A stretch of 64,000 bases of DNA, taken from NCBI RefSeq assembly GCF_901538265.1, contig NZ_LR593886.1:6283738-6347737 (forward strand). Reading direction: 5' to 3'. Made by a program: the position numbers and the translations under genes. Positions 18,625 through 38,149 of this stretch are shown here, one piece after another. The stretch's first letter is position 1, and each line of letters begins with the position of its first letter. The notes under the pieces were generated by a model. It was not told where the DNA came from, made no database searches, and saw only the letters and a program-made list of their open reading frames with translations. Origin of the DNA: Gemmata massiliana. GTDB taxonomy: Bacteria; Planctomycetota; Planctomycetia; Gemmatales; Gemmataceae.

Positions 18625-18680
18625 TGCTTTGACCTCGCTGGTGACAAGCCCATTGCAACGTGCGCGCCAAATACCGGCCC

Positions 18681-18911: not shown

Positions 18912-19358
18912 GACTATCTCCCAGTTGGTGGTAAGTGAGTGAAGGAGTATTGGTGAGCTGCCGCGACTCGGCGAGCGCGACAGGTTGACACGAAAATCAA
19001 ATCATTTTTATTGATTCTGTTGATCTATTCGATCAGCAGCTTGTTCTATCATCCCACCTTGCGGCGAGTTGATTGATACTAATGCAGCCCTCGTGCCAAT
19101 TCGCTACTCACCAATTCCCTGCGGCGCAAAACACGGCACAAACGAGCCACCAAACGCAGGAAATCGCAGCATTTTTCTACTTCGCATGCGATGCGGCTCG
19201 TTTGCCAAGTTCGCGATTTTTATCTTTGCCGCGCGACTCAGAGCAGAGAAGTTCCCAAGTTGATTCGCGGATTCCGCGCTCTGCGTAGAATGGTGCGTCT
19301 GGTCTTCTGCTACCGGACAATTCTCCAGCGCACTTCGCCTCTCAATCCGGAGAAACAC
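18912..19358. other. Divergent intergenic region (DUF1328 / DUF2934)
   Basis: About 450 bases with lower GC. A TTGACA hexamer at 18985-18990 followed 17 bases later by TTATTG is a weak plus-strand promoter candidate; TAGAAT near 19286 has no well-spaced -35. No open frame here shows coding character. Confidence 0.4.
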
Positions 19359-19845: not shown

Positions 19846-20361
19846 TCAGCCACCATGAATCACAATCGTGGCATTCAAAGCCGCAGCGAACGTGACCCAC
19901 AACCAGTACGGCACCATGAGCAGCCCTGCGACCCGCGACACTAGGAAGAACTCGGCCATCGTGACCGCGACCATGACCCACAAAAGGCAGATGTCGAGGA
20001 AGCCCAAGAGCGGGCTGTGCAGGCCGAAGAAACACACGCTCCACGCGAGGTTGAGCCCCAGTTGCACACCGAACGCACTCAACGGACAGCACACATCGTC
20101 ACTGTTGCGCTCGACCCAGACGATCGAGGCCGCGATCGCCATCATCGCGTACAGAGCCGCCCAGACCGGGCCGAACACCCAGTCGGGCGGGGTCCACGAC
20201 GGCTTCGAGAGTTCGCGGTACCAACTGTCCACCGCGGGAGCGGTGATAAGACCACCGAGCACACCAACGAGAGCGGTCGCGGAAACGATCACCGCGACCC
20301 CGGTCAACCCCGGCCCCGGCTTGGTCGTGCTACCGACAGAATTGCACGTGAGTGAAGACAT
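19846..20361 (-). CDS. tspO: TspO/MBR-family membrane protein
   Basis: 171 residues from the ATG at 20361. Five membrane helices with family motifs: LSKPSWTPPDWVFGPVWAAL after helix 1, NLAWSVCFFG in the middle, and MVPYWLWVTFAAALNATI at the end. TspO binds tetrapyrroles such as protoporphyrin IX and is linked to oxidative and osmotic stress. The gene precedes no tetrapyrrole genes here (hemL is 23 kb away) but lies in the membrane-stress island. An N-terminal extension of about 20 polar residues precedes helix 1. Confidence 0.93.
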   Translation of the reverse strand: MSSLTCNSVGSTTKPGPGLTGVAVIVSATALVGVLGGLITAPAVDSWYRELSKPSWTPPDWVFGPVWAALYAMMAIAASIVWVERNSDDVCCPLSAFGVQLGLNLAWSVCFFGLHSPLLGFLDICLLWVMVAVTMAEFFLVSRVAGLLMVPYWLWVTFAAALNATIVIHGG

Positions 20362-20399
20362 GACGGAAATCCTTTCGGGCGCCGAGGTGCCTTTACCAC

Positions 20400-20864
20400 T
20401 CAATCGTGGTGACTGCAACCGAGAAGATGATTAAGCCCCTCGACGTGCCTCCGGCACGCGGGCAGCAGATCACTGAGAATCATTCGGTGACAGTCCGGGT
20501 GGATGTCCTCGTTGTGGAGCGCGTCCTCGTAGGCGCCGATCCCGTGTTCTTCGCCCTGACGCAGTGCGGCCAGCACGGTCGCGGGCCCGAGCGCCTTTGC
20601 GGTCGCGGTCACAGTCGCGGTGAACGTTCCCCAAACTTCAGAGCTTTCCGCGGGTGCCCCGCCGAACGTAATCACGTGGTCGCGCAACTCGCGCACCGCG
20701 CGGCTGTGTTCGTCACGGATCTTTTGCAGTTCGGCGACGACTTCCAGATCATCGAACTTGCCCATCGCCTGGGTGTACGTTTCGACCGCTGACAGCTCGC
20801 CCCGCAACAGTGAGTTCAGGGCGTCGGTATCACAGGTCATCGGCTCGTGCGTTGCAGTACTCAT
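20400..20864 (-). CDS. DUF2383 / PA2169-family four-helix (ferritin-like) protein
   Basis: 154 residues; AGGAG 7 bases before the ATG. The N-terminus (DALNSLLRGELSAVETYTQA) is the DUF2383 signature, with Glu at helix positions typical of ferritin-like folds, then EHSRAVRELRDHV, EEHGIGAYEDAL and a His/Cys-containing tail (LLGCSHHD). DUF2383 proteins are ferritin-like stress proteins of unknown activity. The downstream tspO start is about 40 bases away on the same strand. Confidence 0.88.
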   Translation of the reverse strand: MSTATHEPMTCDTDALNSLLRGELSAVETYTQAMGKFDDLEVVAELQKIRDEHSRAVRELRDHVITFGGAPAESSEVWGTFTATVTATAKALGPATVLAALRQGEEHGIGAYEDALHNEDIHPDCHRMILSDLLPACRRHVEGLNHLLGCSHHD

Positions 20865-21360: not shown

Positions 21361-21538
21361 TATGTGTCCTCTTTGGATCAGCAGATTCTCCCGACGGGAG
21401 TGCCGGGTACGACGGAGTTACGCAACCGCTGTGCCATACCGAGCCGCGCCGCGGCATGAGCGTTGCATTGAAAGGAGTCAGTAGGTCGTAACTGGAACGG
21501 GCCAGCGGCCCTTAACTCATGCGAATTGGAGCAGAATC

Positions 21539-21943: not shown

Positions 21944-21968
21944 GAAGCCACGATCTCCATTCAACGCG

Positions 21969-22699: not shown

Positions 22700-22790
22700 C
22701 GAATGGGGTCTCCGTGACATTGGGCACACGTCACAGAATCGCAAAGCATGTGCCACTCAACACTTATTGCAAAAACAACAGTACAAACGA

Positions 22791-22822: not shown

Positions 22823-22843
22823 CGGTACGTCACCTTTTCGAGA

Positions 22844-23251
22844 TCAGATCACGCGAGCGGTGCGACCGATGAGCAGCCCGACGCCGAAGCCGATGAGCAG
22901 AGCCGGGAGCGGGTGCTTCCGCACGAGGTTCGTCACCTCGCGCCCGAAGTCGCCGACCGAATCGGACGCGGTGCTGTAGGCGTCTTCCGCCCACTGTTCC
23001 GCTTTGCCGCCCGCGTGCCGAACGGTTTCACGCGCGTCGCCGGCCCACTCTTGGAGCTTTTCGCGTGCTTGACCGGCCACGTCACCGGCGCGGTCGATCA
23101 GCCCCTGTGCGTTGTCGCGCACGCGGTCGACGACGTTCGCCCCCTCTTGCTTCGCGTTCTGAGCGCCACCCGCGGCCCGGTCGGTCGCGTTCTTAGCGGC
23201 GTCGGCAGCGTTATCGATACCGGTCTTCATGCGGTCTTTGAGATCAGCCAC
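22844..23251 (-). CDS. DUF883/CsbD-like helical protein with C-terminal anchor
   Basis: 135 residues from a GTG with a strong AGGAGG 8 bases upstream. Residues 1-105 are an Ala/Asp/Lys-rich amphipathic helix with LEA-like 11-residue periodicity (NAADAAKNATDRAAGGAQNA). The end is RKHPLPALLIGFGVGLLIGR, the ElaB/YqjD/DUF883 membrane anchor with its usual GxGxG-like pattern. Such proteins are linked to stationary-phase and envelope stress, and YqjD-type proteins bind ribosomes; that function cannot be read here. Confidence 0.82.
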   Translation of the reverse strand: MADLKDRMKTGIDNAADAAKNATDRAAGGAQNAKQEGANVVDRVRDNAQGLIDRAGDVAGQAREKLQEWAGDARETVRHAGGKAEQWAEDAYSTASDSVGDFGREVTNLVRKHPLPALLIGFGVGLLIGRTARVI

Positions 23252-23317
23252 GGTAGAAACCTCCTGAAGAGTTTGAAGTCCGGAGGGAACCGATTCCTCC
23301 CCGATGACGGGACACCA

Positions 23318-25132
23318 TTATGCACCCGCCGTGCCAACCAATTCGGCTTCCGCCCGCGTGAGGCGCTCCGTACCCGATGCCTTTTGGGGCAATAGCGTTG
23401 GGTGCATCTCGGCGAGCCGCTTGCGCGTATCGGCCAGGGTCCGATCGATCCCGTCCGTGTTCTTGATGGTTTCGCTGCGCGGATCGAGCACCGCCGATTC
23501 GCAGCCCCAGCGCCCCACAAGGAGCTTCACGTCCGGGAACCGCTGGCGCATCCGGGCCAACAGGTAGCGCGCGTGAGATACACCGCCGGGCGGCATCGTG
23601 GCGATCACGACCACCACGGGCCGGAACTCCGCGACCAGTTCCATCAGTTCGGAAGCCAGCGTCTCATCGCCCGCGACCTTCACTTCCCAGCGGGTCGAAT
23701 CGAGGGTCATCGCGAACACTTCGGCAGTCACGTGCTCGGCTTCGTCCCGGGCCGGGACCACGAGCACACGCACGCGCGACTCAAATGCGCCGCTCGTCGG
23801 TGCCCTTAGTTCTGCAATCTCCTCCGCCACCTCGCGCGTCGCGCCAACTACGAACCGCAGATCGGCCTTGTCCAGATCGCCCTCGTCGTGGTCGCGTCGC
23901 GCCAGGCAGAGCGCGGGGATGATGACCTGATCGAACGCGGCATCAGGCCCGCGCTCCTCTGCTACGGCGAGTGCGATTTCAGCGGCTTCGTCCTGGTCGC
24001 GTGCCGTGAGGCGCTGGTAAAAAGCGACTTGTGGCTCCAGTGCGGGTTCGTCGCCCAGCAGCACAACGAAGAACTCGAACTGCCGGACGTGGCGCCCCAG
24101 CACCAAGAGACACACGGTGAGCGGACCGGACAGGATCAAGCCGATCGGCCCCCACAGGAACGCCCAGAACGCTGCGGCCACCAGTTGTGCCACTTCCGAC
24201 AAGCCCATGCTCTTGCCGTACAGCGTCGGCTCGACCACGTTATTGCAGAACGTTTCCAGTCCGATGAACAGAACGAGCACCGCGACCGGTTGCCCCCACC
24301 CGCCGCCCCAATCGGGGGCCGTTGCGAACGAGAACAAGACCGGCGGGATCAGTCCCACCCACGTTCCGATGTACGGCACGTACCGCATCAGCGTGGCGAT
24401 GAACCCCCACAACAGGCAGTACTTCACTCCCAGAATGAACAGCCCGACCGTGATGACGGCCCCGAACGCACTGTTCACCATCAACTGGCTGAACAGGTAC
24501 CGGCTGATGCGCTGGGACGCATCGTCCACGGCCTTCGTGGTCGTGGTGACCTTCCCGGAACCCAGGAGTCGAATCATCCGGTTGCGCAAGTCTTCGCGCT
24601 TCAGGAGCATGAACACGGTCAGGATGAACGTGAACGCCGCTTGCCCCAGGAACTCGGCCGCGGGGCCGAGGTACACGTCCAACTGAGAAGTGAACGACGA
24701 CGATTGCGTTTCAACCACCATCGGGGGCGTAGCGGGTTTCGGGGACACGGCGTTCGATACGTCGTCGATCAGTTCCCCGAACCGACTGTTCCCGTTCCCA
24801 ACAACCCATTCCTTCGCGGCCGTGACCTTCTGCCGGATCGTGTCCCTTTTGTCCGGGAGCGTGTCGGCCAGTTGCGTGACCTGCTGCGTGATCGCGGCCC
24901 CGACCCCCGCGGTCACGAGGACCAGGAGCCCGACCGTAACGATAACGGCCGTAGTTCGCCCCAACCCGCGCCGCTGCAACCGGTTCACGACCGGCGCCAG
25001 CACGAACGACAGGAAGATCGCGAGCGTCACGGGAATGAAAATCGAGCGCGCCCAAAAGAGCAGCGCGATGAGCGCCGTACCGACGACCGTCGCGGAGAGC
25101 GCGACGAGAGCGCGTTGCCAGTCCGATGCCAT
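23318..25132 (-). CDS. AI-2E-family transporter fused to a cytosolic alpha/beta domain
   Basis: 604 residues; AAGGGG upstream of the ATG. Residues 1-350 are a PerM/AI-2E exporter-like protein: FIPVTLAIFLSFVLAPVVNR near the N-terminus, the long extracytoplasmic helix region (about 85-160), and the family block RYVPYIGTW...P and ETFCNNVVEPTLYGKSMGLS. Residues 370-604 add a soluble part with a Rossmann-like core (ESRVRVLVVPARDEAEH, VVVVIATMPPGG, DVKLLVGRWG) that resembles the B12-binding fold. The cobalamin DxHxxG is absent, so cofactor binding is doubtful. No close neighbour explains the fusion. Confidence 0.88.
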   Translation of the reverse strand: MASDWQRALVALSATVVGTALIALLFWARSIFIPVTLAIFLSFVLAPVVNRLQRRGLGRTTAVIVTVGLLVLVTAGVGAAITQQVTQLADTLPDKRDTIRQKVTAAKEWVVGNGNSRFGELIDDVSNAVSPKPATPPMVVETQSSSFTSQLDVYLGPAAEFLGQAAFTFILTVFMLLKREDLRNRMIRLLGSGKVTTTTKAVDDASQRISRYLFSQLMVNSAFGAVITVGLFILGVKYCLLWGFIATLMRYVPYIGTWVGLIPPVLFSFATAPDWGGGWGQPVAVLVLFIGLETFCNNVVEPTLYGKSMGLSEVAQLVAAAFWAFLWGPIGLILSGPLTVCLLVLGRHVRQFEFFVVLLGDEPALEPQVAFYQRLTARDQDEAAEIALAVAEERGPDAAFDQVIIPALCLARRDHDEGDLDKADLRFVVGATREVAEEIAELRAPTSGAFESRVRVLVVPARDEAEHVTAEVFAMTLDSTRWEVKVAGDETLASELMELVAEFRPVVVVIATMPPGGVSHARYLLARMRQRFPDVKLLVGRWGCESAVLDPRSETIKNTDGIDRTLADTRKRLAEMHPTLLPQKASGTERLTRAEAELVGTAGA

Positions 25133-25278
25133 GATGAGTCCCCTTCCGTGTCAGAAGCGCCAGCAAACGTGCCTCAGTACACGCAAGGGGAGTGCCACCG
25201 CGCGCGGCAACTTGGTGCCCGGTCGAGTGAACCGGCGTGCGCGGTTAGAAGTGTCTAAACTGCTCCAATTACTGCGAA

Positions 25279-26466
25279 TCAAGCCACGCGAGTCACGGGC
25301 AAATAGACCGTGAACGTAGCCCCGGTTCCCGGCCCTTCACTGTGTGCAGAGACCGTGCCGCCGTGCATCTCTACGAGCTTGCGCACGAGCGCCAGACCGA
25401 TCCCCAACCCGGACTGCGACCGGTTCAGTGTGCGGTCGACCTGCGTGAACAGCCCGAAGAGTTGCGGGAGCACAGTGGCCGAGATGCCAACCCCCGTGTC
25501 GCGCACGCTGACCGTCACGCGCCCCCCAACGGGCTTCACGGTGAGCCACACCCGACCGCCCGGTTCGGTGAACTTGCTCGCGTTGTTGAGGATGTTGCCA
25601 AACACCTGCGTGAGCCGGACCCGGTCGCCGTCCAGTTTCACCGGGGCGGTTGGGACATCCACGATCAGTTCCAGCCCGGCCTTCTCGAATAGCGACCGGC
25701 TCATATCGAGCACGGATTCCATGATGTCCTGAACCGTCAGCGTCTCGATGGTCAAACGCAACTTCCCGGTCGTGATCCGGGACACGTCCAGGAGGTCTTC
25801 CACGAGGCGCTTGAGCTGCGCGACCTGGCGCTCCATGCGCTCGCGTTGGCGCCGGACCGTGTCGCCCGTATCGTTCGCGAGCCGCAGAATTTCCAGAGCA
25901 TTCGTGATGGGTGTCAGGGGGTTCCGGAGTTCGTGCGCCAGGAGCGCGAGGAACTCGTCCTTGCGCTTATCGGCCTCGCGGAGCGCGGCATTCACGCGCG
26001 CCAGTTCCTCGGTACGTTCCTGGACCTTTCGCTCCAGTTCGGCCGCGGCCCGAGATTGGGCTACTGCGAACCGAATCGCCCGGTCCAGCAGCGAGGCAGT
26101 GAGTCCGGCCTTCTCCAGATAGTCGTCCGCGCCCGCGTCGAGTGCCTCAAGGTCCGTGCGCGAGTGCGCCTGCCCGGTGAACAGAATCACCGGCGCCGAG
26201 CGCCCGCGGGCACGGGCCTCGCGAAGTAACTCGATGCCGGTGCGCGCCCCGAGGTGGAAGTCCAACAGGTACACGTCGTGCGTACCGGTGCAAATCGCCT
26301 CAAGTCCCTCCCCGTAATGGGGCGTCCAGTCCAGGGTGTACGGCCGACCGGGAACGTCCGCCAGGCGCTCCTCGGTCAAGAACCGGTCGTCCTCGTCGTC
26401 GTCAATCAACAGTACCCGGGTGGCGGGTCCGGGGGCGGCGCGATCAGCCTTAAGGTCCGTTCCCAT
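25279..26466 (-). CDS. Receiver-histidine kinase hybrid
   Basis: 395 residues from the ATG at 26466. An N-terminal receiver (VLLIDDDEDDRFLTEE, phosphoacceptor Asp in VYLLDFHLG, Lys in DDYLEKAG) is joined by a coiled coil to HisKA (FLALLAHELRNPLTPI) and a HATPase_c domain (NILNNASKF, DTGVGI, GLGIGLALVRKLVEMHGG). No membrane segment, so it is cytosolic. The start overlaps the end of the upstream receiver gene by 17 bases. This layout (receiver feeding a kinase) suits a phosphorelay in which the upstream kinase or receiver modulates it. Confidence 0.93.
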   Translation of the reverse strand: MGTDLKADRAAPGPATRVLLIDDDEDDRFLTEERLADVPGRPYTLDWTPHYGEGLEAICTGTHDVYLLDFHLGARTGIELLREARARGRSAPVILFTGQAHSRTDLEALDAGADDYLEKAGLTASLLDRAIRFAVAQSRAAAELERKVQERTEELARVNAALREADKRKDEFLALLAHELRNPLTPITNALEILRLANDTGDTVRRQRERMERQVAQLKRLVEDLLDVSRITTGKLRLTIETLTVQDIMESVLDMSRSLFEKAGLELIVDVPTAPVKLDGDRVRLTQVFGNILNNASKFTEPGGRVWLTVKPVGGRVTVSVRDTGVGISATVLPQLFGLFTQVDRTLNRSQSGLGIGLALVRKLVEMHGGTVSAHSEGPGTGATFTVYLPVTRVA

Positions 26467-26911
26467 CTGGAGGCAGCTCCACAATTTCTAACCAATACTT
26501 TCCGAGCGTTCTCACCACATCAACCAGGCGCTCGAAGGTGACCGGTTTCGTGATGTACGACGCGGCCGATAAATCGTAACTCCGCAGCACGTCCTCCTCG
26601 GCCTTGGAGGTCGTCATAACCACAACACGAATGTTGCGCAAGCGCGGGTTCGCCTTAATTTCTTGAAGGGCCTCGCGCCCGTCCTTCCGCGGCATGTTCA
26701 GATCAAGGAGGATCAGCCCCGGGAGGGGAGCGGCCCCTTCCGCCGCGTACTTCCCGCGCTGGTTCAAATAATCGAGTAGCTCCTCCCCGTCCTCAACGAA
26801 CCGCAAATCGTTGGCCAAATGGTTCTCCTCGAACGCCTCCCGGGTCAATTGCCGGTCATCGGGATCGTCATCGGCCATCAGGATGGTGATCGGTTTGCTC
26901 CGGTCGGACAT
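26450..26911 (-). CDS. Single-domain response regulator (Rcp1/CheY-like)
   Basis: 153 residues from the ATG at 26911. Acidic pocket ADDDPDDR, phosphoacceptor Asp in LILLDLNMPRKDG, Thr in VVMTTSKAEED, Lys in YITKPV. The long loop after beta-2 (YLNQRGKYAAEGAAP) is typical of Rcp1-type regulators that pair with phytochrome-like kinases. The start lies 44 bases inside the end of the big kinase gene and the end overlaps the next hybrid gene by 17 bases, so the three form one coupled operon. No output domain. Confidence 0.95.
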   Translation of the reverse strand: MSDRSKPITILMADDDPDDRQLTREAFEENHLANDLRFVEDGEELLDYLNQRGKYAAEGAAPLPGLILLDLNMPRKDGREALQEIKANPRLRNIRVVVMTTSKAEEDVLRSYDLSAASYITKPVTFERLVDVVRTLGKYWLEIVELPPDGNGP

Positions 26912-29900
26912 CGGTCTTGGTACCCTCGTGCGGTTGAGTTTGGTGGACCGGGATGGTGACCACGAACGTGGTGCCCTCACCCGGCCGACTGTGAGCCGTA
27001 ATCGTCCCGCCGTGCCGCTCGGCGATCTTGCGACAAATAGCGAGCCCGACCCCGGTCCCTTCGTACTCGTCCCGCCCGTGGAGCCGCTGGAACACTTCAA
27101 AGATCCGGTCCCGGTACTTCTCGTCGAACCCGATCCCGTTGTCCCGCACACAGAAGCGGTACACCGGTCGGTCGGCCCCCGGCTGATTTTGGTCCGGGGC
27201 CACGAGTTCGGACGTGATCTCTACCACGGGTGGGACACCCGGTCGGTGAAATTTTACCGCATTGGCGATCAGGTTCTGAAACAACTGCCGCATCTGGGTC
27301 GGGTCCGCGTGGACCGCGGGTAGCGCACCGATTACGACCCGCCCGTTCGCCTGCCCGATACGAATGTCCAAATCCGATATCACTTCCCGGACCAGTTTGT
27401 CCAAATCGATCTGTTTGAACGGGCGCTGCTGTGTGGTGACGCGGGAGAACGTGAGCAGGTCGTCGATGAGCCGGCGCATCCGGCCCGCCGCGGTCAGCAT
27501 GCGATCAACGTACTCTTTCCCCTTGTCGGGAAGTTCCTCACGGCACTTCGTGACGAGCCGGTCACCGAAGGCCTGGATTTTGCGAAGCGGTTCCTGCAAG
27601 TCGTGTGAGGCGATGTATGCGAACTTCTCCAGTTCCCCGTTACTGCGTTCCAGTTCCGTGGCCACCGCCCGAACCTTCTGTTCGGTCCCCTTCCGCACCT
27701 CGATTTCACTGGTCAGTGCCGCGTTCGCCTGTTCCAGTGCGGCCGTGCGCTCGCGCACCACTTGTTCGAGGAAATCCCGCTGGCGCTTCTGATCGTCAAT
27801 GTCGGTGAGCGTCCCCACCCACTCGCCGACCGCCCCTGTCGGATCGCGCAGCGGAATGGCCGCGGAGAGGAACCAGCGGTACTCGCCGTCAGACGCCCGG
27901 CGCAAACGGAACTCCTGCGAGAACCCGTCGGCCTGCTGCGCGACCGCGATCTGCCACCCGGCGCGGAGCCGGTCCGCGTCGTCCGGGTGGAGTAAATCGC
28001 CCCCGAACCCGGTCTGGCGCCCGGACTCCAGTTCCGTTCCGGTGAACTCGGTCCAGCGCCGGTTGAAGAACGTCACCGCGCCCTGCGGGTCGGAAGTCCA
28101 GACGATTTGCGGAACGGTCTCGGTCAGCGTCCGGAACCGCAACTCGCTGGCCCGCATTTGCTCTTCGGCCCGGCGCTGTTCGGTCACGTCACGCGAAACC
28201 CCGAGCAACCGGTCCGGTTGACCGTTCGCACCGGGGAGCGGAGCCACCGACACGTCCCAGTACCGCGGTGTCCCCTTCGCGGTCGGGCAGAACCCCTGGA
28301 ACCGCCCGACGTTTCCGACCCGGGCGCCTGTCACGACCTCGCGAATCGTTTCGCGGTTCGCCACCGGCCACTGTTCAGCCCACAAGCTCCCGCGGATCGC
28401 AGTAAAATCGTCCAACTCCATGAGCCGACACCCGGCCTCGTTCATCTCCAGCACGCGCCCGTCGAGGTCGAACACCTTGAGGCAGTCGGGGCTGTTCTCG
28501 AACACGCTCCGGCGGAACGCTTCACTCTCCCGGATCTTCTCCACGGCCGTCTTCTGATCGTGGATATCGGCCATCGACCCGATCCACTGGTCCACGCGCC
28601 CATCCGCGTGCCGCAATGGGACCGCGACACTTTGGAACCAGCGGTAGGTGCCGGTTTCGGTGTGCATCAACCGGAACTCCTCCGTGAACCGGTCCGCGGT
28701 GCCGTCGGCCGCGTTGCCCACGGTGCTCCGCCACGCCGTGTACACGCGATCCCGGTCGTCGGGGTGAATCGCTTGCGTCCACCCGCGCCCGTGCGCCTCG
28801 TCGAGTTGCAGCGCGGTCTGTTCGATCCAGCGCTGGTTGAAGTACGTGATCTCGCCGTTCGCGTCCGCGTTCCAGACGATGTGCGGCACTGCCTCGGTCA
28901 ACGTCCGGTAGCGCTCCTCGCTCCTGCGCACCGCGAGTTCGGCGTCGCGCTGATCGGTGATGTCCAGGCACAGGCCCGCGAACCCCACGAACGCGCCCCC
29001 GGCCGTGTGGCGCGGGGTTCCGCGTGCCAGCACCCACCGGTACTCCCTGTCGTGCCGGCGCAGGCGGTACTCCAGCCCGAACGGTTCGCGCCGGTCGGCG
29101 GCACCGTTGTAGGCGTCCATGTACCGGGCGCGGTCGTCGGGATGCATGTCGTCGACCCAGCCGAACCCGGCCAGTTCCTCTGGAGAGCGCCCGGTAAATG
29201 CCAACCACGTCTTGTTGAAGTACGTCCGGCGCCGGTCCGGTTCCGAAAGCCAGATGAGCGCCGGTGAGCTGTCGGCCATCGTCCGGAACCGCTCCTCGCT
29301 CTCGCTCAGCGCGCCGCTCGTCCGGCGCCGGTCGATGTACTGCGCGACGCTCGCGGCGATCGGGTCGAGGTCCGCGATCAGCGCGCCAGGGAGTCGCGTG
29401 CCTGAAACGAGTTCCAGCACGCCGAACGCGCGCCCGTCCACGGTCAGCGGGTAGCCGGCAAAGGCACGCACTCCTGGTTGACCCAAATCCGGGTCGTTCT
29501 GTGCGTCGTTCGTCACGTGCCGGCGTCCGGTCCGGGCGATCCGACCGATCAGAGAGTCAGACATCAGCACGCGCTCGGGAGCGCCCGGGAGGTCGTCCGA
29601 GCCGGCGCCCGCGACTCGTTCCAGGCACTCGCTACTCGCATCAGTGAGCCAAATGCGTGCGGACGCCATATCAAGCGCGTCGGCCAGCGTTTCCACACAA
29701 TTCTGAAGCGCCGGCGTCGTTTCGCGAGTGGTCGCGAGGGCCGAGGCCACGTCAGCCCGGAGCGCGGTCGCTCGGGCACGCTCGGCCAGTTCGTCGGCCG
29801 TGCGTTTTTGCTCCGTGATATCGTGGAGCACGACCCCGGCCCCAAATGTCTTTCCGTCCGCCCGGCGCACCGGGAACGCGGTGACGTGCCACGCCAGCGT

Positions 29901-31064
29901 GTCGCCCCCGGTGGCGTGATTGGGGCGCTGAAGGGTGCCCGAAAACCCGCCGATCTCACCAGTCGCGATCAGGCGGTACGTTTCGGCCACGTCACGCGGG
30001 AAGTCGGGCAGTACGTCCGTGAGTTTGCGACCCAAGTGCTCGCTCACCGGCTTGCCGTTCGCCGCGGCGAGGTACGTGTTCACCTTCTCGTACCGCAACT
30101 CGGGATCGAAGAACACGATCCCCACCGGCGCGTTGTCGAAGAACGCATCCAGCCGCGCGAGCGCTTCGGCGGTCTGGTTCCGCGCGGCCGTCAGTTCGCT
30201 CTCGCGCTGACGCAAAGCCGCTTCCACCACCCGGCGCCGGGTCACTTCGGATTCCAATTCCTCCTGGCGGTTCAGAGCCGATGCGAGGGCGACCCGCGCG
30301 CGCCGCTGGGCGACACGTTGCGACTCGCCCAGCGCCGCACACGCCACACCGCAGAAGAAGAACAGCGCGCTCGCCAACTGGTTCCCCAGCCCCGAGACGA
30401 GGAACGATCCGCGCGGGTGCAAGAAGAAGTACATGTACCCGGCCACGCTAAGCATCAGCGTGACGAGCGCGGGCCGGAACCCGTGCTGCCAGCTCACGTA
30501 CACGACTCCGAGCAGCGCGACGACGAAGATCTGGTCGCTGCTCAAGAGCGGGTCGACGAGCCCGCGCACGAGCAGCGCGAGAACCCCGACCAGGATGCCG
30601 ATGATGTAAGCGCGCCACGGCACCCCGCGCCCGGCGCCCCGAGTGAGCGGTCGGTGGGATTTGGTGCCGGTATCGGCCGCGGACACGGCCTCGGCCACCG
30701 TGGGCATGACCCGCGGGATCACCTGAATCAGCGCCACGACCGTGATCCACGACAGGACCGCGGTGACGGCCTTCATCACCCCCTCGAACCGGTACACCGG
30801 GTACTCGAACAGCAGCGCGTCGATCAGGTGCGTGGTGCCGCACGCGAGGATGAACAGCGCGAAGAGGACGAAGAGGCGCGGGAACGGCAGGTCGCGGCGC
30901 CGCGTAAAATAAAACAGGACTAGCGGAATCGAAACGTAGGCCAACCAGATCAAAAAGTCGCTGGTCGCGTGCAGCCAAATCAGGGCGGGGGTCCAACCGC
31001 TTCCACCCTCCCCGCGGCGCGTGAAGTCCGCGGGGTCGAACAGGCCGGTGAGTACCTCGAACAT
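26868..31064 (-). CDS. Ethylene-receptor-like multi-PAS/GAF histidine kinase
   Basis: 1398 residues from the ATG at 31064 (AGGGGAG upstream). Residues 25-115 form a three-helix membrane domain like the ethylene-binding domain of plant ETR1: ATSDFLIWLAYVSIP and FILACGTTHLI. D36, Y43, I46, P47, I72, C75 and H79 match the seven ETR1 residues D25, Y32, I35, P36, I62, C65, H69; C65 and H69 bind Cu(I) in ETR1. A DUF4118-like membrane unit follows (about 150-260), then PAS (about 320-435), GAF (about 440-570), four PAS domains (about 590-1110), HisKA with His at about 1155 (SHDLQEPLRK) and HATPase_c to about 1390. No receiver is present; two receiver genes overlap downstream. Ethylene, another olefin or copper are possible ligands. 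Confidence 0.93.
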   Translation of the reverse strand: MFEVLTGLFDPADFTRRGEGGSGWTPALIWLHATSDFLIWLAYVSIPLVLFYFTRRRDLPFPRLFVLFALFILACGTTHLIDALLFEYPVYRFEGVMKAVTAVLSWITVVALIQVIPRVMPTVAEAVSAADTGTKSHRPLTRGAGRGVPWRAYIIGILVGVLALLVRGLVDPLLSSDQIFVVALLGVVYVSWQHGFRPALVTLMLSVAGYMYFFLHPRGSFLVSGLGNQLASALFFFCGVACAALGESQRVAQRRARVALASALNRQEELESEVTRRRVVEAALRQRESELTAARNQTAEALARLDAFFDNAPVGIVFFDPELRYEKVNTYLAAANGKPVSEHLGRKLTDVLPDFPRDVAETYRLIATGEIGGFSGTLQRPNHATGGDTLAWHVTAFPVRRADGKTFGAGVVLHDITEQKRTADELAERARATALRADVASALATTRETTPALQNCVETLADALDMASARIWLTDASSECLERVAGAGSDDLPGAPERVLMSDSLIGRIARTGRRHVTNDAQNDPDLGQPGVRAFAGYPLTVDGRAFGVLELVSGTRLPGALIADLDPIAASVAQYIDRRRTSGALSESEERFRTMADSSPALIWLSEPDRRRTYFNKTWLAFTGRSPEELAGFGWVDDMHPDDRARYMDAYNGAADRREPFGLEYRLRRHDREYRWVLARGTPRHTAGGAFVGFAGLCLDITDQRDAELAVRRSEERYRTLTEAVPHIVWNADANGEITYFNQRWIEQTALQLDEAHGRGWTQAIHPDDRDRVYTAWRSTVGNAADGTADRFTEEFRLMHTETGTYRWFQSVAVPLRHADGRVDQWIGSMADIHDQKTAVEKIRESEAFRRSVFENSPDCLKVFDLDGRVLEMNEAGCRLMELDDFTAIRGSLWAEQWPVANRETIREVVTGARVGNVGRFQGFCPTAKGTPRYWDVSVAPLPGANGQPDRLLGVSRDVTEQRRAEEQMRASELRFRTLTETVPQIVWTSDPQGAVTFFNRRWTEFTGTELESGRQTGFGGDLLHPDDADRLRAGWQIAVAQQADGFSQEFRLRRASDGEYRWFLSAAIPLRDPTGAVGEWVGTLTDIDDQKRQRDFLEQVVRERTAALEQANAALTSEIEVRKGTEQKVRAVATELERSNGELEKFAYIASHDLQEPLRKIQAFGDRLVTKCREELPDKGKEYVDRMLTAAGRMRRLIDDLLTFSRVTTQQRPFKQIDLDKLVREVISDLDIRIGQANGRVVIGALPAVHADPTQMRQLFQNLIANAVKFHRPGVPPVVEITSELVAPDQNQPGADRPVYRFCVRDNGIGFDEKYRDRIFEVFQRLHGRDEYEGTGVGLAICRKIAERHGGTITAHSRPGEGTTFVVTIPVHQTQPHEGTKTDVRPEQTDHHPDGR

Positions 31065-31223
31065 GGCTCCCCTGGGTCGGGCGAAGGGCCGAACGGGTCG
31101 GCGCAACCGGCACACTCCGTGTACCGTGACGCCGAACGGCGGGCGCGGCTGCTCTTAATTTGTGTCGCCCCAGAGTTCGGAACGCAGCGAATCCGAAAAC
31201 ACTCGGGTCAAAGTGCGTGTGTG

Positions 31224-31252
31224 TTCCACAGGACCAGTCCGGGGTGTAGAAT
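31224..31252 (+). promoter_or_regulatory. Candidate sigma-70 promoter for NtrC-type gene
   Basis: TTCCAC (31224-31229), 17-base spacer, TAGAAT (31247-31252) in the 220-base divergent region between the kinase and the activator. It would start transcription about 26 bases before the ATG at 31285. It is a visual match only. Confidence 0.5.
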
Positions 31253-31284
31253 ACACGAGCAGACAATCAACGTGGGAACAGCGC

Positions 31285-32739
31285 ATGGTTAACGACACGA
31301 CTCCTGCACCTTCCGTGCCAGCACCCCCTCCCTCTCCTGCACAACGAGTCCTGGTCGTCGAGGATCTGGAAGACACTCGCACTTCGCTCCAAGAACTCTT
31401 GCAGATGAGCCTCGGGCTGGAGGTCGACACCGCCGAAGACGGCGCCGCGGGGCTGACGCTGCTCCGCAGCAAGCCGTACAGTTTGGTCATTACCGACCTG
31501 CGGATGCCGAAGGTCGGCGGGATGAAGCTGATCGAGGCGATTCAGGCGGAGAAGATCCCCGTAACCGTGATCGTCACCACCGGCCACGGAAACGTGAAGG
31601 ACGCGGTCGAAGCGATGCGGATGGGCGTCTACGACTTCATGACCAAACCGCCGGACCCGCAGCACCTCCAACTCATCGTCCAGCGTGCGCTGCGCGAGCG
31701 CACGCTGCGGGACGAGGTCGCCGCCCTGCGGCGCGAACTCGGCGACCGCCACGCCTTCCAGAACGTGCTGAGCCGCAGCACCAAAATGTACGACATGTTC
31801 GAGCTGATCGGCAACGTCGCCGACACCAGTTCGACGGTGCTGATCCGCGGGGAGACCGGGAGCGGGAAAGAACAGGTCGCGCGGGCGATCCACCAAGCGT
31901 CCACCGCGTTCCGGCCCGGCGAGTTCGTCGCGGTCAATTGCGGCGCGCTCAACGAGAACCTGCTCGAGAGCGAACTGTTCGGCCACGAGAAGGGGTCGTA
32001 CACCGGCGCCGACCGCAAGCGCATCGGGCGGTTCGAGTTGGCCCACAAAGGCACGCTGTTTCTCGACGAGATCGGCGACGTGCCGATGTCGATGCAGATC
32101 AAACTGCTCCGCGTGCTCCAAGAGCGCCGGTTCGAGCGCGTGGGCGGCACGGAACCGATCGAGGTGGACGTGCGGGTGGTCGCGGCGACCCACCAGGACA
32201 TGGAAAAACTGGTAAAAGACGGGAAGTTCCGCGAAGACCTCTACTACCGGCTGAACGTGGTGCGGATCGATCTACCGCCGCTGCGCGAGCGCGTCGAGGA
32301 CATCCCGGTACTCGTGTCGCACTTCTGTGAGAAGTTCGCGCGGATCAACCAGAAGCCACCGACGGTCAGCCCGGAAGCACTGGCGATGTTAACGAAGTGC
32401 CCGTGGCCCGGGAACGTGCGCCAGCTCGAAAACGCCATCGAGCGCGCCTGCGTGACCGCACGCGACGGCGTCATTCGCACGAAGGACTTACCTCCGGAAG
32501 TGGGGCGCAAAACCGAAGGTGGGAAGAACCCGTTCCACGTCGACCTGACCCGTAAGTTACCGGATCAGTTGGCCGAACTGGTTGCGGCGTTCGAGGAGCG
32601 GTACATCCGCCGGGCGCTGAAACGGTCGCGGGGTCACGTGGGCAAGTGCGCGAAGATCACCGGGCTGTCGCGCCGCAGCATCACGGACAAGATTGCGCAG
32701 TACAAGATCGATAAGTCGCAATTCAAGGGCGGCGAGTGA
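31285..32739 (+). CDS. NtrC-type sigma-54-dependent response regulator
   Basis: 484 residues from the ATG at 31285. Receiver domain (VLVVEDLEDTR; phosphoacceptor D71 in VITDLRMPK), AAA+ domain with Walker A GETGSGKE near 190, the sigma-54 contact loop at 237-242 reading GSYTGA instead of GAFTGA, Walker B GTLFLDEIGD, and arginine-finger region RVVAATHQD. A Fis-type HTH ends the protein (GHVGKCAKITGLSRRSITDK). It is divergent from the ethylene-receptor-like kinase, so it may be its transcriptional output. Targets would have -24/-12 promoters; none was confirmed in this window. Confidence 0.95.
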   Translation: MVNDTTPAPSVPAPPPSPAQRVLVVEDLEDTRTSLQELLQMSLGLEVDTAEDGAAGLTLLRSKPYSLVITDLRMPKVGGMKLIEAIQAEKIPVTVIVTTGHGNVKDAVEAMRMGVYDFMTKPPDPQHLQLIVQRALRERTLRDEVAALRRELGDRHAFQNVLSRSTKMYDMFELIGNVADTSSTVLIRGETGSGKEQVARAIHQASTAFRPGEFVAVNCGALNENLLESELFGHEKGSYTGADRKRIGRFELAHKGTLFLDEIGDVPMSMQIKLLRVLQERRFERVGGTEPIEVDVRVVAATHQDMEKLVKDGKFREDLYYRLNVVRIDLPPLRERVEDIPVLVSHFCEKFARINQKPPTVSPEALAMLTKCPWPGNVRQLENAIERACVTARDGVIRTKDLPPEVGRKTEGGKNPFHVDLTRKLPDQLAELVAAFEERYIRRALKRSRGHVGKCAKITGLSRRSITDKIAQYKIDKSQFKGGE

Positions 32740-32905: not shown

Positions 32906-34798
32906 TCACTTCGGCGCTACTTTCAGAACCGGTGGAGGAGCCGGGCGCGCTCCGAGCGGTGGGCGAGTAGAGTCTGCCGCCTCCTCGGGATCGATGGTCA
33001 CTTCGCCACCATCGACCGTGACATACGGCCAGAACAATTCCGGTTTGAGGTTAGTCGGGAACAGGCTCACGCTTCCGTCGAAGCGCAGCGCAGGAGTGCG
33101 GTCCCAGCCCTTGTCGCCGAGTGGAGGAACCGCCCCACCGAACGGCAGGTCGGCGGGCTTCGACCAGATGACGCCCTCACCGGCTTCGATCACCGCGAGC
33201 GTGTTCGAGGTGCCATCGTGGATCGACGTGATCGCGAGACCGGTCTTTTCCCCCTGCCGCAACCACGGGCGCCCGAAGATTCCCTTCGGTTGGCCCTTTT
33301 GCGGATCGGAACCGATGAAGCCTTGGTAGTACGTCTCGCCCTTCGCGTGGTCCCGGTCGGGCGCGAGGTACACCTTCGGCATCTTCTCGATGAGCGCTTT
33401 GTTGTTCGGGCCGTCCCAAGCCTCGTCCATCTTGAACTGCCGGTAGAGAGCGTCCTGTTCGAGATACGGCAACAGGTGAACGCGCCAACTGAGGAGCACT
33501 TCACCCTTCGGCCCGTAGACGTTCGTGGGGAACTTGCCGTTCGCGTCGTGGTAACTGTGAAGCGCGAGGCCGATCATTTTCAGGTTGTTCATCCGCTGTT
33601 CGGCCTTCTTGCGGCTCTGAACGGCTTGGAGCAGGTCACCGAACGCCTTCGACGCGACCGGCCCGGCATCGACCTCCGTGCTCGCGAGCACGGCCGCGCC
33701 TTCGGTCTTCACGCTGGCCTTCTTCAAGCTCGCGGCGAACGTGCTCACGATCGGCGCCGCGGACTTCTCGAACGGCCGGCGGCTCTCCTTCATCTCCGCG
33801 GCCCACTCGTTCAGCTTCTCGGCGACCGTCCCGATGCCCTCCTCGAGCACGGGCGCGGCCCGCTTCGCGGCCGTCGCGTCGTCGAACGTGAGCGTCAGTT
33901 TGAGTTTCGCGGACTCGTTGAGATCCCCTGTAATGACCGCGTTGCGCGTTCCCAGGAGCGCGGTGTACGGCACCAGATCGCGCGGCACGTGGCGATCGAA
34001 TTCGCGGAACAGCGGCGACAGGTGAACGCCCGCAGCGAACGTGTGGTTCCCCGCAGCCGCGAGCGCGTCGGCGAGCGGACCGGTCGCGTTCTTCTTCAGG
34101 CTCGCGCTGAGCAGGGCCAACCGTATGAATTCGCCGTTCCGCTCCCCCGGGAGGAACACGAGCGTGCGGTCGTCCACCAGGAACAGCACCGAGAACACGT
34201 TGCGTGCGAGCGAGTAGCACAACGGTTCGGCGTCTCCGCCGTCCGCGTTCGCCAAGCCCGAATCCGCGTCCTTGGGATCGGGAATCACTTCGACCGGCCG
34301 CTCGATGGGAGTAGGCGATTTCGCCTCGACTCGCGGTGGGGAGCCATTAAAGCCGGGCCGACCGGGGTGCCTGTGGTTTTCAAATACCGGTTCGGCCTTC
34401 AAGTTCTTCAGCACGCGGACTTCGTTAAAAGGTGCGCTTGTGGTCACAACCAGGATCGGCTCCGATCCGCCGCGAGGTACGAGGCGCGGCCAGAACAGCG
34501 TGACGCGATCGATCTCCGTCGGCGCCACGCCGATCACTTCGGTCAGTCCCGCGAGCGCGTCCGGTTGCTTCGCGAGTTGCGTAAGTGCGGCCTTCAGATC
34601 AGGGTTGCGGGCGAGGTCGGAAACTTTGAGCGTCACGAACGCGCCGGCCGACTTCGGCACGACCGGCAGCGCGGAATTCGCTGGCGGCCCCTCACCGGGT
34701 CCGCTTCCCGGTTGGGGCGGCTGTTGTGCGGTCGAGGGCGCGTACAAGGACAGCCCGGCTATCAGCGCCAGCGCGGGCAGGAATCGTGCCTGGATCAC
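32906..34798 (-). CDS. Secreted protein with DUF1559-type C-terminal domain (copy 1)
   Basis: 630 residues from a GTG at 34798 with GAGGTG upstream; the upstream part of the open frame lacks a signal. A classical signal peptide (ARFLPALALIAGLSLYAPST, cleavage near AQQ) replaces the prepilin helix. Residues 30-430 are a repeat-free alpha/beta region with PKSAGAFVTLKVSDLARNP near the start. From about 440 a DUF1559-like domain follows (NNLKMIGLALHSYHDANGKF, LLPYLEQDALYRQF, HDGTSNTLAVIEAGE, DGSV). No H-x9-DG. Paralogous to the next gene upstream. Probably periplasmic or surface exposed; function unknown. Confidence 0.85.
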   Translation of the reverse strand: MIQARFLPALALIAGLSLYAPSTAQQPPQPGSGPGEGPPANSALPVVPKSAGAFVTLKVSDLARNPDLKAALTQLAKQPDALAGLTEVIGVAPTEIDRVTLFWPRLVPRGGSEPILVVTTSAPFNEVRVLKNLKAEPVFENHRHPGRPGFNGSPPRVEAKSPTPIERPVEVIPDPKDADSGLANADGGDAEPLCYSLARNVFSVLFLVDDRTLVFLPGERNGEFIRLALLSASLKKNATGPLADALAAAGNHTFAAGVHLSPLFREFDRHVPRDLVPYTALLGTRNAVITGDLNESAKLKLTLTFDDATAAKRAAPVLEEGIGTVAEKLNEWAAEMKESRRPFEKSAAPIVSTFAASLKKASVKTEGAAVLASTEVDAGPVASKAFGDLLQAVQSRKKAEQRMNNLKMIGLALHSYHDANGKFPTNVYGPKGEVLLSWRVHLLPYLEQDALYRQFKMDEAWDGPNNKALIEKMPKVYLAPDRDHAKGETYYQGFIGSDPQKGQPKGIFGRPWLRQGEKTGLAITSIHDGTSNTLAVIEAGEGVIWSKPADLPFGGAVPPLGDKGWDRTPALRFDGSVSLFPTNLKPELFWPYVTVDGGEVTIDPEEAADSTRPPLGARPAPPPVLKVAPK

Positions 34799-34866
34799 GG
34801 TGAACACCTCGGGAAGAGGTCGGTGTTGAATGTGAAGCGGCGGCCCACGTTGACCGCCGCACCCGA

Positions 34867-36480
34867 TCACGGCAGGTTGATGATTTCGCCGCCCTGAATC
34901 GTGATGAGTGAGCGGAGCGTTTGTTCCCCGACCTTGCTCGGCCGGAGGATACGAACGCTCCCGTCACCCATCGCGGCAATGAACTTGTCCGCGTTCTTGT
35001 CGCCGAGTTGCGGCAGCGGAAGTTTGCCGTCATACGCGAACACGTCCGGCTTGTACCACGGCACCGCTTCGCCGGCTTCGACGATCATGAACGTGTTGCT
35101 CGTACCGTCGGTGACCTCAACAATGCGCGGCCCCTTCTGTCCTTCGATGAGCCACGGGCGATCGGTCCCCTTCGCGCCCTTGGGGGAGCAGAAGACGCGG
35201 AAGTACGTGTGCCCCTTCGGTGCCGGGCGCCCGGGGATCTCGAACACCTTCGGCATCTCGACCGCTTCGAGCTTCTTCAGGTTGGCCGGGTCGTCCCAGG
35301 GTTTCGTGAGATCGAGCCCTCTGTACAAATTATCCTGCTCGATGAACGGCAACAGTTGAACGCGCCAGCTCCACGGCTGTGACTTGTCACCGGCCGGATG
35401 CACATCGCTGACCATTTGGCCGTATGCGCTCTCGTAGTTGTGCATCCCGAGTGCGAGTTGCTTGAGATTGTTGAGCCCGCGTGCGCTGTTTGCGGCGGCC
35501 GCATAGGACTTGGGCAGCGCGGTGGCGATTTTCGCGATTGCGTCCTGGTAGGGGAAGTCGGCGGTCGCGAAGACATCAACCCCATTGGCCTCGATCTTTG
35601 CCGCTTTCAGAACCGCGATAAGCGCCCCGAGTACCGCGTGTTCGGCCGAATCTTCTTTCTCTTTGCGGCCCGCAAGCCCCTTCTCGGCGGCGGCCGTGAT
35701 CTCACTCACGCCCTCCTTCAGGACGGGTGCCGCACGTTGCGCGGTCGCCTCGTTGGGGAACGTGATCTTCAACGCGCCTCGCGCGGTCTTGTCGAAATCC
35801 GCCGCGAACGTCACCGTGCGTGCTTTGAGGAGGGAAACATAGGGTGCCAGTTCTCTGATCTCGGAGGCCCGCGCGAATTCGGCGAGCGGGCGGGCGTCGA
35901 GTGCGAACGCGATATCGTGCTTCGCGGCGTCGGTCAGTGCGACCGCCAGCGGGCCGTCCGTCTTTTTCGCAACGAGCTGGCCGACCAGCCCGGCTAGCGT
36001 GAGTTGACCGCGTTCGGGGACGTACAGCACGGTGCGGTCATCGGCCAACACGATCAGTGAGAACGCACCACCCTTGGTGCGAATGATATTGCTGTTCGCT
36101 TGCGATTCGCGCTCGCCGTTCAAGAGCTTGATCAATTTCGCTTCGTTGTACGGCTTCTTCGTTGTCACGAGCAGCAGCGGTTCCGGATCGCGCGTCATGG
36201 CCGGCACGAACAGCGTCAGGCGCTCGATCTCGCCCATCGGCACGCCGATCGCGTCTTCCGTGGGGCCAGACTTTTGTGCGCCGAACCAGTCGCGGAGCGG
36301 TTTGAAGTCAGGGTTATCCCACAATTTCCCGACGTTCACCGTGAAGAACGCGAAGGAGTCGGTGGGAACCCCTGCGAGTGTCTCTGGCTTCGCGGTGGTA
36401 GCAGCCGGTTGTGAGATCGCCGGTGGTGCCGTGGCCGAAACAATCAGGAGCGGCACAAACAACGCGAGACGGGTGCGCAT
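34867..36480 (-). CDS. Secreted protein with DUF1559-type C-terminal domain (copy 2)
   Basis: 537 residues from the ATG at 36480 (GGAG upstream). Signal peptide (LALFVPLLIVSATAPPAI), then PTDSFAFFTVNVGKLWDNPD, which parallels the copy 1 N-terminal module. The last third is DUF1559-like: LNNLKQLALGMHNYESAYGQ, LLPFIEQDNLYRGL, VTDGTSNTFMIVEAGEAVPW, GDGSVRIL. The stop lies 68 bases before the copy 1 start, so they form an operon from a tandem duplication. These are DUF1559 folds detached from the pilin helix. Confidence 0.87.
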   Translation of the reverse strand: MRTRLALFVPLLIVSATAPPAISQPAATTAKPETLAGVPTDSFAFFTVNVGKLWDNPDFKPLRDWFGAQKSGPTEDAIGVPMGEIERLTLFVPAMTRDPEPLLLVTTKKPYNEAKLIKLLNGERESQANSNIIRTKGGAFSLIVLADDRTVLYVPERGQLTLAGLVGQLVAKKTDGPLAVALTDAAKHDIAFALDARPLAEFARASEIRELAPYVSLLKARTVTFAADFDKTARGALKITFPNEATAQRAAPVLKEGVSEITAAAEKGLAGRKEKEDSAEHAVLGALIAVLKAAKIEANGVDVFATADFPYQDAIAKIATALPKSYAAAANSARGLNNLKQLALGMHNYESAYGQMVSDVHPAGDKSQPWSWRVQLLPFIEQDNLYRGLDLTKPWDDPANLKKLEAVEMPKVFEIPGRPAPKGHTYFRVFCSPKGAKGTDRPWLIEGQKGPRIVEVTDGTSNTFMIVEAGEAVPWYKPDVFAYDGKLPLPQLGDKNADKFIAAMGDGSVRILRPSKVGEQTLRSLITIQGGEIINLP

Positions 36481-36600
36481 GAGAGAACTCCGGGAGCGAG
36501 ACGTGTGGGCCGCCGGTCCCAGAGATAATACCGCGAAGCGCGCGCCGGGGCCAACACCCACCAACGGGCTTTATCACGTCTTCACGCCGGAGTCATTTCA

Positions 36601-38001
36601 TCAATAGGCGTGTTTCTGTTTTGAAAAGAGCATGCGCCAGACCGTGAGGAACACGATCCGCAGGTCAAAAAGTGGGTTCCAATGACTGATGTAATAGAGA
36701 TCGAACTGGACGCGCTTGCGGAGCGACGAGTTGCCGCGCCAGCCGTTTACCTGTGCCCACCCGGTGATACCGGCCTTCACCGCGTGGCGGGCGTTGTAGT
36801 TGGGGATCGACTTCGCGAACTGCCGCACGAACACCGGGCGTTCCGGGCGCGGGCCAACGATGCTCATGTCGCCCCACAACACGTTGAAGAATTGTGGGAG
36901 TTCGTCCATGTTCGTGGCCCGAAGCACGGCCCCCAGGCGCGTGCGCCGCGGATCGTTCTTCGCGGTCATTTGCGGACCGTTGGCTTCCGCGTCCACTCGC
37001 AGCGAACGGAACTTCATCATCATGAACGAGCGCCCGTTCAGACCGCACCGCTCTTGCCGATAGAGAACCGGACCGGGACTGGTGAGTTTGACGAGGGCCG
37101 CGATCAGCGCCATGAGTGGCCCGGTCAACACGATTGCGATGAGCGCGAGCACGATGTCCATCGCGCGTTTCACGATCACGTTCAGCCCGTGGTGCGGGTT
37201 CTCGCGCAGCCCGACCACTGTCATCCCGTGGATCTGCGTCGTGGTGAACGTCATCCCCGCAACGGCAGGAAGATCGGCGATAAGTTGCACGTCCACGACC
37301 GTTTGCGACAGAGCCGTAAACACCCGGCGTGCGTCCGCGTAGCGGTTCAGCGGGAGCGCGACGAAAACGTGCTCAATGTGGTGCTTCTCAACGAGTTGCG
37401 GCAGTTCCGCGAGCGAACCAAGGAGCGGCAAATCGGCCCCGGACCCGCGGTGCCCCTCGTCCTCGACGTAACCCACAGGTTGAATGCCGGACCAGTTCAC
37501 CGCGCGCAGCGTGCGAACCGTGCGCCGAGCGAGCCGCCCCGTCCCGACGATGAGTGCGTGACTCTGATTCACCCCGCGTGCGCGCAACCGACGCATCCCG
37601 GTCCAACTGATGCGCCGGGCGACGAGCAGGGAACAGAGGGTACCCACGGCGAACATCACCATCGCACCGCGGGACTCGTACTGGGCTTGTCGGGCGAAGC
37701 TGGTCGCCATTACGAGCAGGGCCATCAGCCCGACACCGCGGGCCGCAGCCGCGAGCTCCTCGCGGAATCGACGCAACCGGTGGACCTCGTACATCCCCGC
37801 GAACCGGTAAGCGATCCCCGCCACGAGCATAATGAGCGGGAGCGTTCGCAAATACAGGGTGAATTCCGGGACGCCCCGGTGCGCGGTGAACAGTCCGGAG
37901 TAGAACCGTACCGAGTACGCGGCGAGCCACGTTCCTGCGGTGAGGACGACGTCCCACACGAAGAACCAAGCGACGAGCGACTGACTGACGCGGCGGACCA
38001 T
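36601..38001 (-). CDS. Polyprenyl-phosphate sugar-phosphate transferase (WcaJ/PglC-type)
   Basis: 466 residues from the ATG at 38001, which has AGGGGC 7 bases upstream; ATGs at 38022 and 38106 are alternatives. Four N-terminal membrane helices, a Rossmann-like CoA-binding-type middle (ALIVGTGRLARRTVRTL), then the bacterial sugar transferase domain: KRAMDIVLALIAIVLTGPLM, SPGPVLYRQERCGLNGR, MMKFRSLRVDAE, TNMDELPQFFNVLWGDMSIV and GPRPERPVFV. It transfers a hexose-1-phosphate to undecaprenyl phosphate to start an exopolysaccharide or capsule repeat. No glycosyltransferases lie nearby. Confidence 0.93.
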   Translation of the reverse strand: MVRRVSQSLVAWFFVWDVVLTAGTWLAAYSVRFYSGLFTAHRGVPEFTLYLRTLPLIMLVAGIAYRFAGMYEVHRLRRFREELAAAARGVGLMALLVMATSFARQAQYESRGAMVMFAVGTLCSLLVARRISWTGMRRLRARGVNQSHALIVGTGRLARRTVRTLRAVNWSGIQPVGYVEDEGHRGSGADLPLLGSLAELPQLVEKHHIEHVFVALPLNRYADARRVFTALSQTVVDVQLIADLPAVAGMTFTTTQIHGMTVVGLRENPHHGLNVIVKRAMDIVLALIAIVLTGPLMALIAALVKLTSPGPVLYRQERCGLNGRSFMMMKFRSLRVDAEANGPQMTAKNDPRRTRLGAVLRATNMDELPQFFNVLWGDMSIVGPRPERPVFVRQFAKSIPNYNARHAVKAGITGWAQVNGWRGNSSLRKRVQFDLYYISHWNPLFDLRIVFLTVWRMLFSKQKHAY

Positions 38002-38149
38002 CGGGCGCCCCTGCCCTTCCATTCTGCGGCGCCATCTTGGCGCGCGGCTCGAAACGGTAGCACCCGCGCCGCGCCGCGTCAAGATGGGTAGAATTCCCAT
38101 CGACACCGCGCGACCGCCGCGCTCAGTTCCAGTGCCCGAGGGCCGACCC

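Follow-up and report, generated by a model that had tools for sequence, protein, structure and literature searches.

Ethylene receptors have been proven in few microbes, according to the accessible part of PMC11819568. Receptors or their homologues are described in cyanobacteria and proteobacteria in the available portions of PMC11819568, PMC6682694, PMC9603746, PMC6586836, PMC7700396 and PMC6944256, and the first of these adds other, unnamed bacterial phyla. Planctomycetes are not mentioned in the accessible portions of PMC11819568, PMC6682694, PMC9603746 and PMC7700396. An earlier note on the DNA studied here held that no ethylene receptor is established in planctomycetes; our open-literature search is consistent with this statement but is not proof of it, and key earlier papers may list such genes.

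A close bacterial counterpart is AzoEtr1 of Azospirillum brasilense Sp7, which has been shown to bind ethylene and was expressed as a GST fusion in Pichia; the available part of PMC11819568 gives one such gene in this strain, with a forward primer encoding MFGGVEAF. We took locus L246 as AzoEtr1 because it comes from strain Sp 7, for which one such gene is given, and has a domain starting with MFGGVEAF, as in the primer. AzoEtr1 is a protein of 525 aa with one PAS domain, and neither a DUF4118 domain nor a sigma-54 activator is mentioned for it in that part of PMC11819568. SynEtr1 (slr1212) of Synechocystis, compared here by its description, is an ethylene-binding kinase that signals to a response regulator and, unlike the kinase reported here, is also a light receptor (PMC11819568, in part); the cyanobacterial domains that we aligned are L247 and L248. 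Plant ETR1 signals through CTR1, according to the part of PMC7700396 available, and the corresponding part of PMC6586836 describes ETR1 T94 as important for signal transmission and S98 as having a moderate role in binding.

We analysed a stretch of 64,000 nucleotides from Gemmata massiliana (the window), which encodes a kinase that is a sigma-54-linked, two-membrane-sensor variant of the known bacterial ethylene-receptor kinases. Like AzoEtr1, it combines an N-terminal three-helix ETR1_N domain, the seven pocket residues, a histidine kinase and a neighbouring response regulator, and the two ETR1_N domains are approximately 48% identical. The pocket residues were placed by alignment with ETR1 and with the real sequence of AzoEtr1. 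In this alignment plant ETR1 has three additional residues between H69 and T94, and it has an N-terminal Cys pair that the window protein lacks. The seven binding residues of plant ETR1 and its T94 and S98 (PMC6586836, in part) all have equivalents in the window protein. The locus further resembles NtrC-type sigma-54 two-component systems in its activator, composed of receiver, AAA+ and Fis HTH domains, and in the promoter-like sites nearby, and differs from these systems, as compared, in that the neighbouring kinase carries ETR1_N.

The sensor kinase and its ethylene-receptor-type domain

The kinase (Table 1) is composed of ETR1_N, DUF4118, PAS repeats with GAF, HisKA (residues 1145-1210) and HATPase_c (residues 1254-1374), in this order in Pfam, the latter two both above the Pfam cut-off and forming the predicted kinase core. 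ETR1_N (PF25487) matches with 119.9 bits (E 5.9e-35) against a curated cut-off of 27, and only one copy in the 10.1 Mb single-contig genome exceeds this cut-off. The proposal that an ETR1-type domain is present here is borne out by this match, the pocket and the three-helix model. The interval first assigned to it, 30700-31064, corresponds to residues 1-121 and takes in the domain together with a leader.

Table 1. Features of the kinase locus in the window
Feature	Coordinates	Strand	Basis
Sensor histidine kinase, 1398 aa	26868..31064	-	Translation from ATG 31064, Pfam
ETR1_N, residues 28-120	30705..30983	-	Pfam, alignment, AlphaFold
DUF4118, second membrane module, residues 153-257	30294..30608	-	Pfam, 57.6 bits
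HisKA and HATPase_c kinase core, residues 1145-1374	26943..27632	-	Pfam
Single-domain response regulator, overlaps kinase 3' end	26453..26908	-	Pfam Response_reg
Receiver-HisKA-HATPase protein, overlaps response regulator gene	25279..26484	-	Pfam, synteny
AI-2E family permease	23318..25132	-	Pfam AI-2E_transport, 170.5 bits; synteny
NtrC-type sigma-54 activator, divergent, upstream of kinase	31285..32739	+	Pfam
Sigma-54-like site upstream of kinase operon, inside activator gene start	31305..31320	-	Score 10 of 11
Sigma-54-like site, 65 bp upstream of AI-2E permease	25182..25197	-	Scan
Sigma-54-like site, 85 bp upstream of ORF 22844-23251	23321..23336	-	Scan
Sigma-54-like site before ORF 22226-22756, whose real start is probably near 22729	22740..22755	-	Scan
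Sigma-54-like site, 76 bp upstream of ORF 20932-21360	21421..21436	-	Scan
DUF2383 gene, after ORF 20932-21360	20400..20864	-	Pfam
TspO gene, after ORF 20932-21360	19846..20418	-	Pfam
Sigma-54-like site, 187 bp upstream of DUF1328 ORF 18738-18911	19083..19098	-	Scan
Sigma-54-like site, 45 bp upstream of BrkB-type gene 17698-18624	18654..18669	-	Scan

All seven pocket residues named in the earlier note (D36, Y43, I46, P47, I72, C75 and H79) were found at the claimed positions in the translation and alignment, and their spacing within the motifs (7-3-1 and 3-4) agrees with that of ETR1; T101 and S105 align with T94 and S98 of ETR1. The comparison with other planctomycete kinases, which that note had proposed, gave a clear result: all seven residues are kept in 87 of 104 planctomycete copies collected with the Pfam model, which was derived from sequences of this kind. 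The 104 copies comprise 51 from the family of the window, including the window itself, and 53 from the phylum sample, with two rows sharing one contig counted once. Conservation is highest for H (103 copies) and C (102), followed by D and Y (100 each), P (99), I46 (96) and I72 (95), and T101 and S105 are kept in 99 and 101 copies, respectively. The 17 copies with non-complete pockets include single isoleucine changes (e.g. L206 and L056), partial copies (L242 and L244), P to F replacements (L233 and L235), a weak outlier (L245) and two copies that lack the cysteine (L188 and L201).

An AlphaFold model built on a 54-row alignment confidently predicts a bundle of three putative transmembrane helices (residues 26-54, 62-84 and 91-124; mean pLDDT 92.9), as expected of ETR1-type receptors. 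No solved homologous structure was found by sequence at E <= 1 or by fold at E <= 0.001. A longer model, of residues 1-275, was set aside as poor (pLDDT 71); the likely cause is that CHASE3 takes the place of DUF4118 in four of the aligned sequences (L083-L086). Membership of another membrane-sensor family with only chance similarity to ETR1, the objection that the earlier note had itself raised, is excluded by the Pfam match, the pocket conservation, the three-helix model and the domain tree described below. Judged by its sequence, then, the window kinase is a member of the ETR1 transmembrane-domain family, and we infer that its domain could bind Cu(I) and ethylene or another olefin. The copper-ATPases of the genome (two matches above the cut-off) are uninformative on a Cu(I) cofactor, since 13 of 14 control genomes also have one.

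Spread of the domain and turnover of the sensor

The ETR1_N domain exceeds the cut-off in 35 of the 95 genomes of the family to which the window belongs and in 42 of 392 genomes sampled across the phylum, and in none of 14 control genomes. The rarity implied by the earlier note was thus overstated, as Pfam's own model also recognises the domain, and confinement to one genome is ruled out by its spread through the family. In a scan of named genomes, the best 80 of at least 524 relatives carry mostly planctomycete names, with some from Bacteroidota and Verrucomicrobiota, and the closest among the matches listed is Gemmata sp. IIL30, with 98% identity over the domain. In four of these 80 loci, with Bacteroidota-type names (L124, L135, L138 and L152), the first pocket D is replaced by N and the other six residues are kept; pocket states in this set are biased, the search patterns having covered some pocket residues.

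In a tree of 105 domain rows, from which L221, L242 and L244 were excluded, ETR1, AzoEtr1 and the two cyanobacterial controls group with five planctomycete rows (SH-aLRT 97, from 100 columns only). Another group (SH-aLRT 97, from the same 100 columns only) is composed of 19 copies linked to the activator and four others. The decayed domains described below fall inside the activator-linked group, at an exact place that is unsure owing to long branches.

Domains resembling ETR1_N also occur on 15 viral contigs (L063-L077), in 13 of them within short ORFs of 125-183 residues. Cysteine and histidine are kept in all 15 (the scan pattern covered the cysteine), the first D is replaced by H, N or G in eight, and P by S, G or A in eight. 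On one contig (L064, IMGVR_UViG_3300028800_000270), a stand-alone ETR1_N-like ORF of 129 residues at 4989-5375 has the pocket D Y I S I C H and comes immediately after a phage terminase large subunit gene (phrog_979, E 2.7e-158); a match to a virion structural protein lies upstream, and the same ORF is present in L065. It would encode an ethylene-domain protein that lacks a kinase, amid genes for phage packaging.

We used the divergent activator to follow the kinase through orthologous loci. The activator tree contains 31 of 45 matches, the other 14 being weaker or partial, and sensor states were assigned by hand (G050 unknown, G054 and G029 doubtful, G089 a fragment at a contig end). Next to these 31 activators, the kinase has ETR1_N in 16 cases, with pockets intact except for one I72L, and a decayed ETR1_N in two; the remaining 13 comprise DUF4118 alone (three), CHASE3 alone (four), no kinase (three) and doubtful or unknown states (three). 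Well-supported branches force at least five changes of the intact-domain state. The module after ETR1_N varies as well: it is DUF4118 in the window, L202, L203 and L205, and CHASE3 in L083-L086. The copies with CHASE3 only may reflect sensor replacement in either direction.

The two decayed copies, L188 and L201, are the only ones among the 104 without the cysteine, and both lie in this orthologous locus. In L188, Y, I46, I72 and C are changed and D, P and H are kept; in L201, D is the sole pocket residue kept. Their kinase cores are kept (57-58%). Each of the two genomes (G094 and G006, respectively) has another, intact copy elsewhere (L005 and L030). A third kinase, L189, has DUF4118 only, and at its N terminus the ethylene-domain leader persists (score 70 over 31 aligned residues, against 54 for the best of 1000 shuffles). 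This scar supports loss of the domain in L189, and the pocket changes support decay in L188 and L201. In the intact orthologues listed, identities to the window for domain and kinase core are 94/87, 81/75, 74/74, 62/60 and 57/55%, with L204 (60/68%) as the exception, so that in five of the six the ethylene domain matches the window at least as closely as the kinase core does. The decayed domains, the deletion with a scar and the absent domains, all with the kinase core kept, argue that the ethylene module is a genuine ligand input which the kinase can do without. Since orthologous loci lacking the domain exist, the locus does not depend on ethylene.

A conserved locus with sigma-54-like sites

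What is new here is the setting of the ETR1_N kinase, a conserved gene neighbourhood that also contains a receiver, a receiver-kinase, an AI-2E permease and, in divergent orientation, a sigma-54 activator. The activator has a receiver, a sigma-54 AAA+ domain containing the GSYTGA loop and a Fis-type HTH in Pfam, and is matched at E <= 1e-140 in 42 of the 95 family genomes. Within the genus, 13 of 19 genomes have the activator, the same 13 have ETR1_N, and six have neither; kinase and activator lie side by side in 12 of the 13; in G025 the two fall on different contigs, of which the one with the kinase starts inside the activator gene. The single-domain response regulator adjoins the kinase in most orthologous loci examined. 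The full gene order is repeated in L078 (Gemmata), L083-L086 and the Fimbriiglobus-named L093 and L114; in L080 the permease is matched over a short stretch only, and L079, L081 and L082 are consistent as far as their contig ends. On the activator side, the window also contains two adjacent DUF1559-type proteins beside a sugar transferase (32906-38106, the transferase at 36601-38106), and Gemmata sp. IIL30 (L078) has the same three genes next to its activator.

Sigma-54 promoters have -24/-12 elements, which we searched for as TGGCAC-N5-TTGCW with GG and GC fixed, taking scores of at least 10 of 11 as strong. Seven strong sites were found on the operon strand, from 18654 to 31320, and none on the other strand, against 0.23 expected on the operon strand from first-order Markov copies of that 20 kb. 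Lowering the threshold to 9 yields 19 sites in the window as a whole, hardly an enrichment over the 8-18 in five shuffles. The exact form TGGCACN6TGCA occurs 29 times genome-wide (three of them here) and its reversed control 58 times; because the control is commoner, only local clustering counts as evidence. Across 17 loci, which are related and not independent, there are 36 forward and 6 reverse sites (29 and 6 without the window), with 3.07 forward sites expected. Six of the 17 have at most one forward site (none in G044, G006, G051 and G008, one each in G022 and G088), and in three of these six reverse sites outnumber forward ones.

By script, the seven sites lie 26-205 bp before ORF starts; the kinase site is 256 bp from ATG 31064. 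The genes predicted to be controlled are those of the kinase operon and the AI-2E permease, together with four small ORFs (one is DUF1328, and another precedes the DUF2383 and TspO genes) and the BrkB-type protein. The kinase-operon site has identical letters in G011, G010 and G024 and a changed form in G014. Sites upstream of the permease recur at 55-58 bp in G018, G015, G014 and G087, and counterparts of the site before ORF 22844-23251 at 69-86 bp in G011, G010, G026, G018 and G015. RpoN is encoded in the genome (383 bits). The minus-strand stretch 18654-25197 is a putative sigma-54-dependent cluster (AI-2E permease, DUF1328, DUF2383, TspO, BrkB and unnamed ORFs) and, going by its gene content, looks like an envelope-stress regulon.

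Candidate signalling pathway and its meaning for the family

The reading that we favour, and that we consider evenly poised between right and wrong, is an ETR1-type Cu(I)/ethylene receptor kinase driving a local sigma-54 regulon. One Cu(I) ion, the number per monomer expected from ETR1 (PMC6586836, in part), would be held by the three membrane helices through C75 and H79 and would bind ethylene, or a small olefin like it, next to D36, Y43, I46, P47 and I72. Helix 3 could relay the change via DUF4118 and the PAS/GAF modules to the kinase, which would pass phosphate to the co-encoded receivers and probably also to the divergent NtrC-type activator. The activator would in turn switch on the local sigma-54 regulon, comprising the kinase operon and the AI-2E permease along with small genes of envelope or stress type. 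Ligand binding and the effect of the helices on kinase activity are proposed by analogy with ETR1 and AzoEtr1; we infer the direction of signalling, the activity of the promoters and, from gene neighbourhood only, the pairing of kinase and activator.

The pocket might instead hold Cu(I) and answer to a natural signal other than ethylene, such as copper supply, redox state, carbon monoxide or another small unsaturated gas, an alternative that we regard as unlikely yet serious. The sequence reveals only copper and pocket residues, of which C and H are the most fixed, the AI-2E permease, DUF1328, BrkB and TspO look envelope- or stress-like, and ethylene-metabolism genes are absent among the linked genes scanned. 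However, the remaining pocket residues (D, Y, I, P and I) show conservation as well, Y, I46 and I72 changed alongside the cysteine in both decayed copies, and AzoEtr1, with the same seven residues, binds ethylene (PMC11819568, in part). That the domain binds ethylene or copper while the activator and promoters serve another kinase, their neighbourhood being historical, seems improbable to us. The activator does persist without an adjacent kinase (in G092, in G047 and at the second copy in G088), and close relatives of the domain lie elsewhere in G089, G092 and G047 (L008, L213 and L219), but the co-occurrence of kinase and activator in the genus and the sigma-54-like site upstream of the kinase operon speak against such a separation. 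To a domain acting as a ligand-free membrane anchor or dimerisation module we give hardly any credence: relatives do retain the kinase with a decayed domain or none, yet the degree of pocket conservation would be unexpected for a mere anchor, as would a domain as conserved as the kinase core in most of the intact orthologues listed.

Returning to the ethylene-receptor reading, a wider evolutionary version of it can be offered tentatively, at less than even confidence: an old, vertically inherited ethylene-receptor kinase drives a neighbouring sigma-54 envelope-stress regulon in Gemmataceae, and sister lineages have shed or lost the pocket or carry CHASE3 or DUF4118 instead.

Intact pockets are extended by this work to a phylum for which our literature search found no tested member. 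The locus supplies predicted output genes for measurement, so that ethylene or copper sensing in this group is now testable. Orthologous kinases with intact, decayed (L188 and L201), deleted (L189) and absent domains provide natural controls, which allow a test of the role of ethylene in a non-phototrophic bacterium that is not known to associate with plants. If the evolutionary reading is true, which we hold possible though somewhat doubtful, this one locus would be a natural series for the gain and loss of ethylene sensing outside plants.
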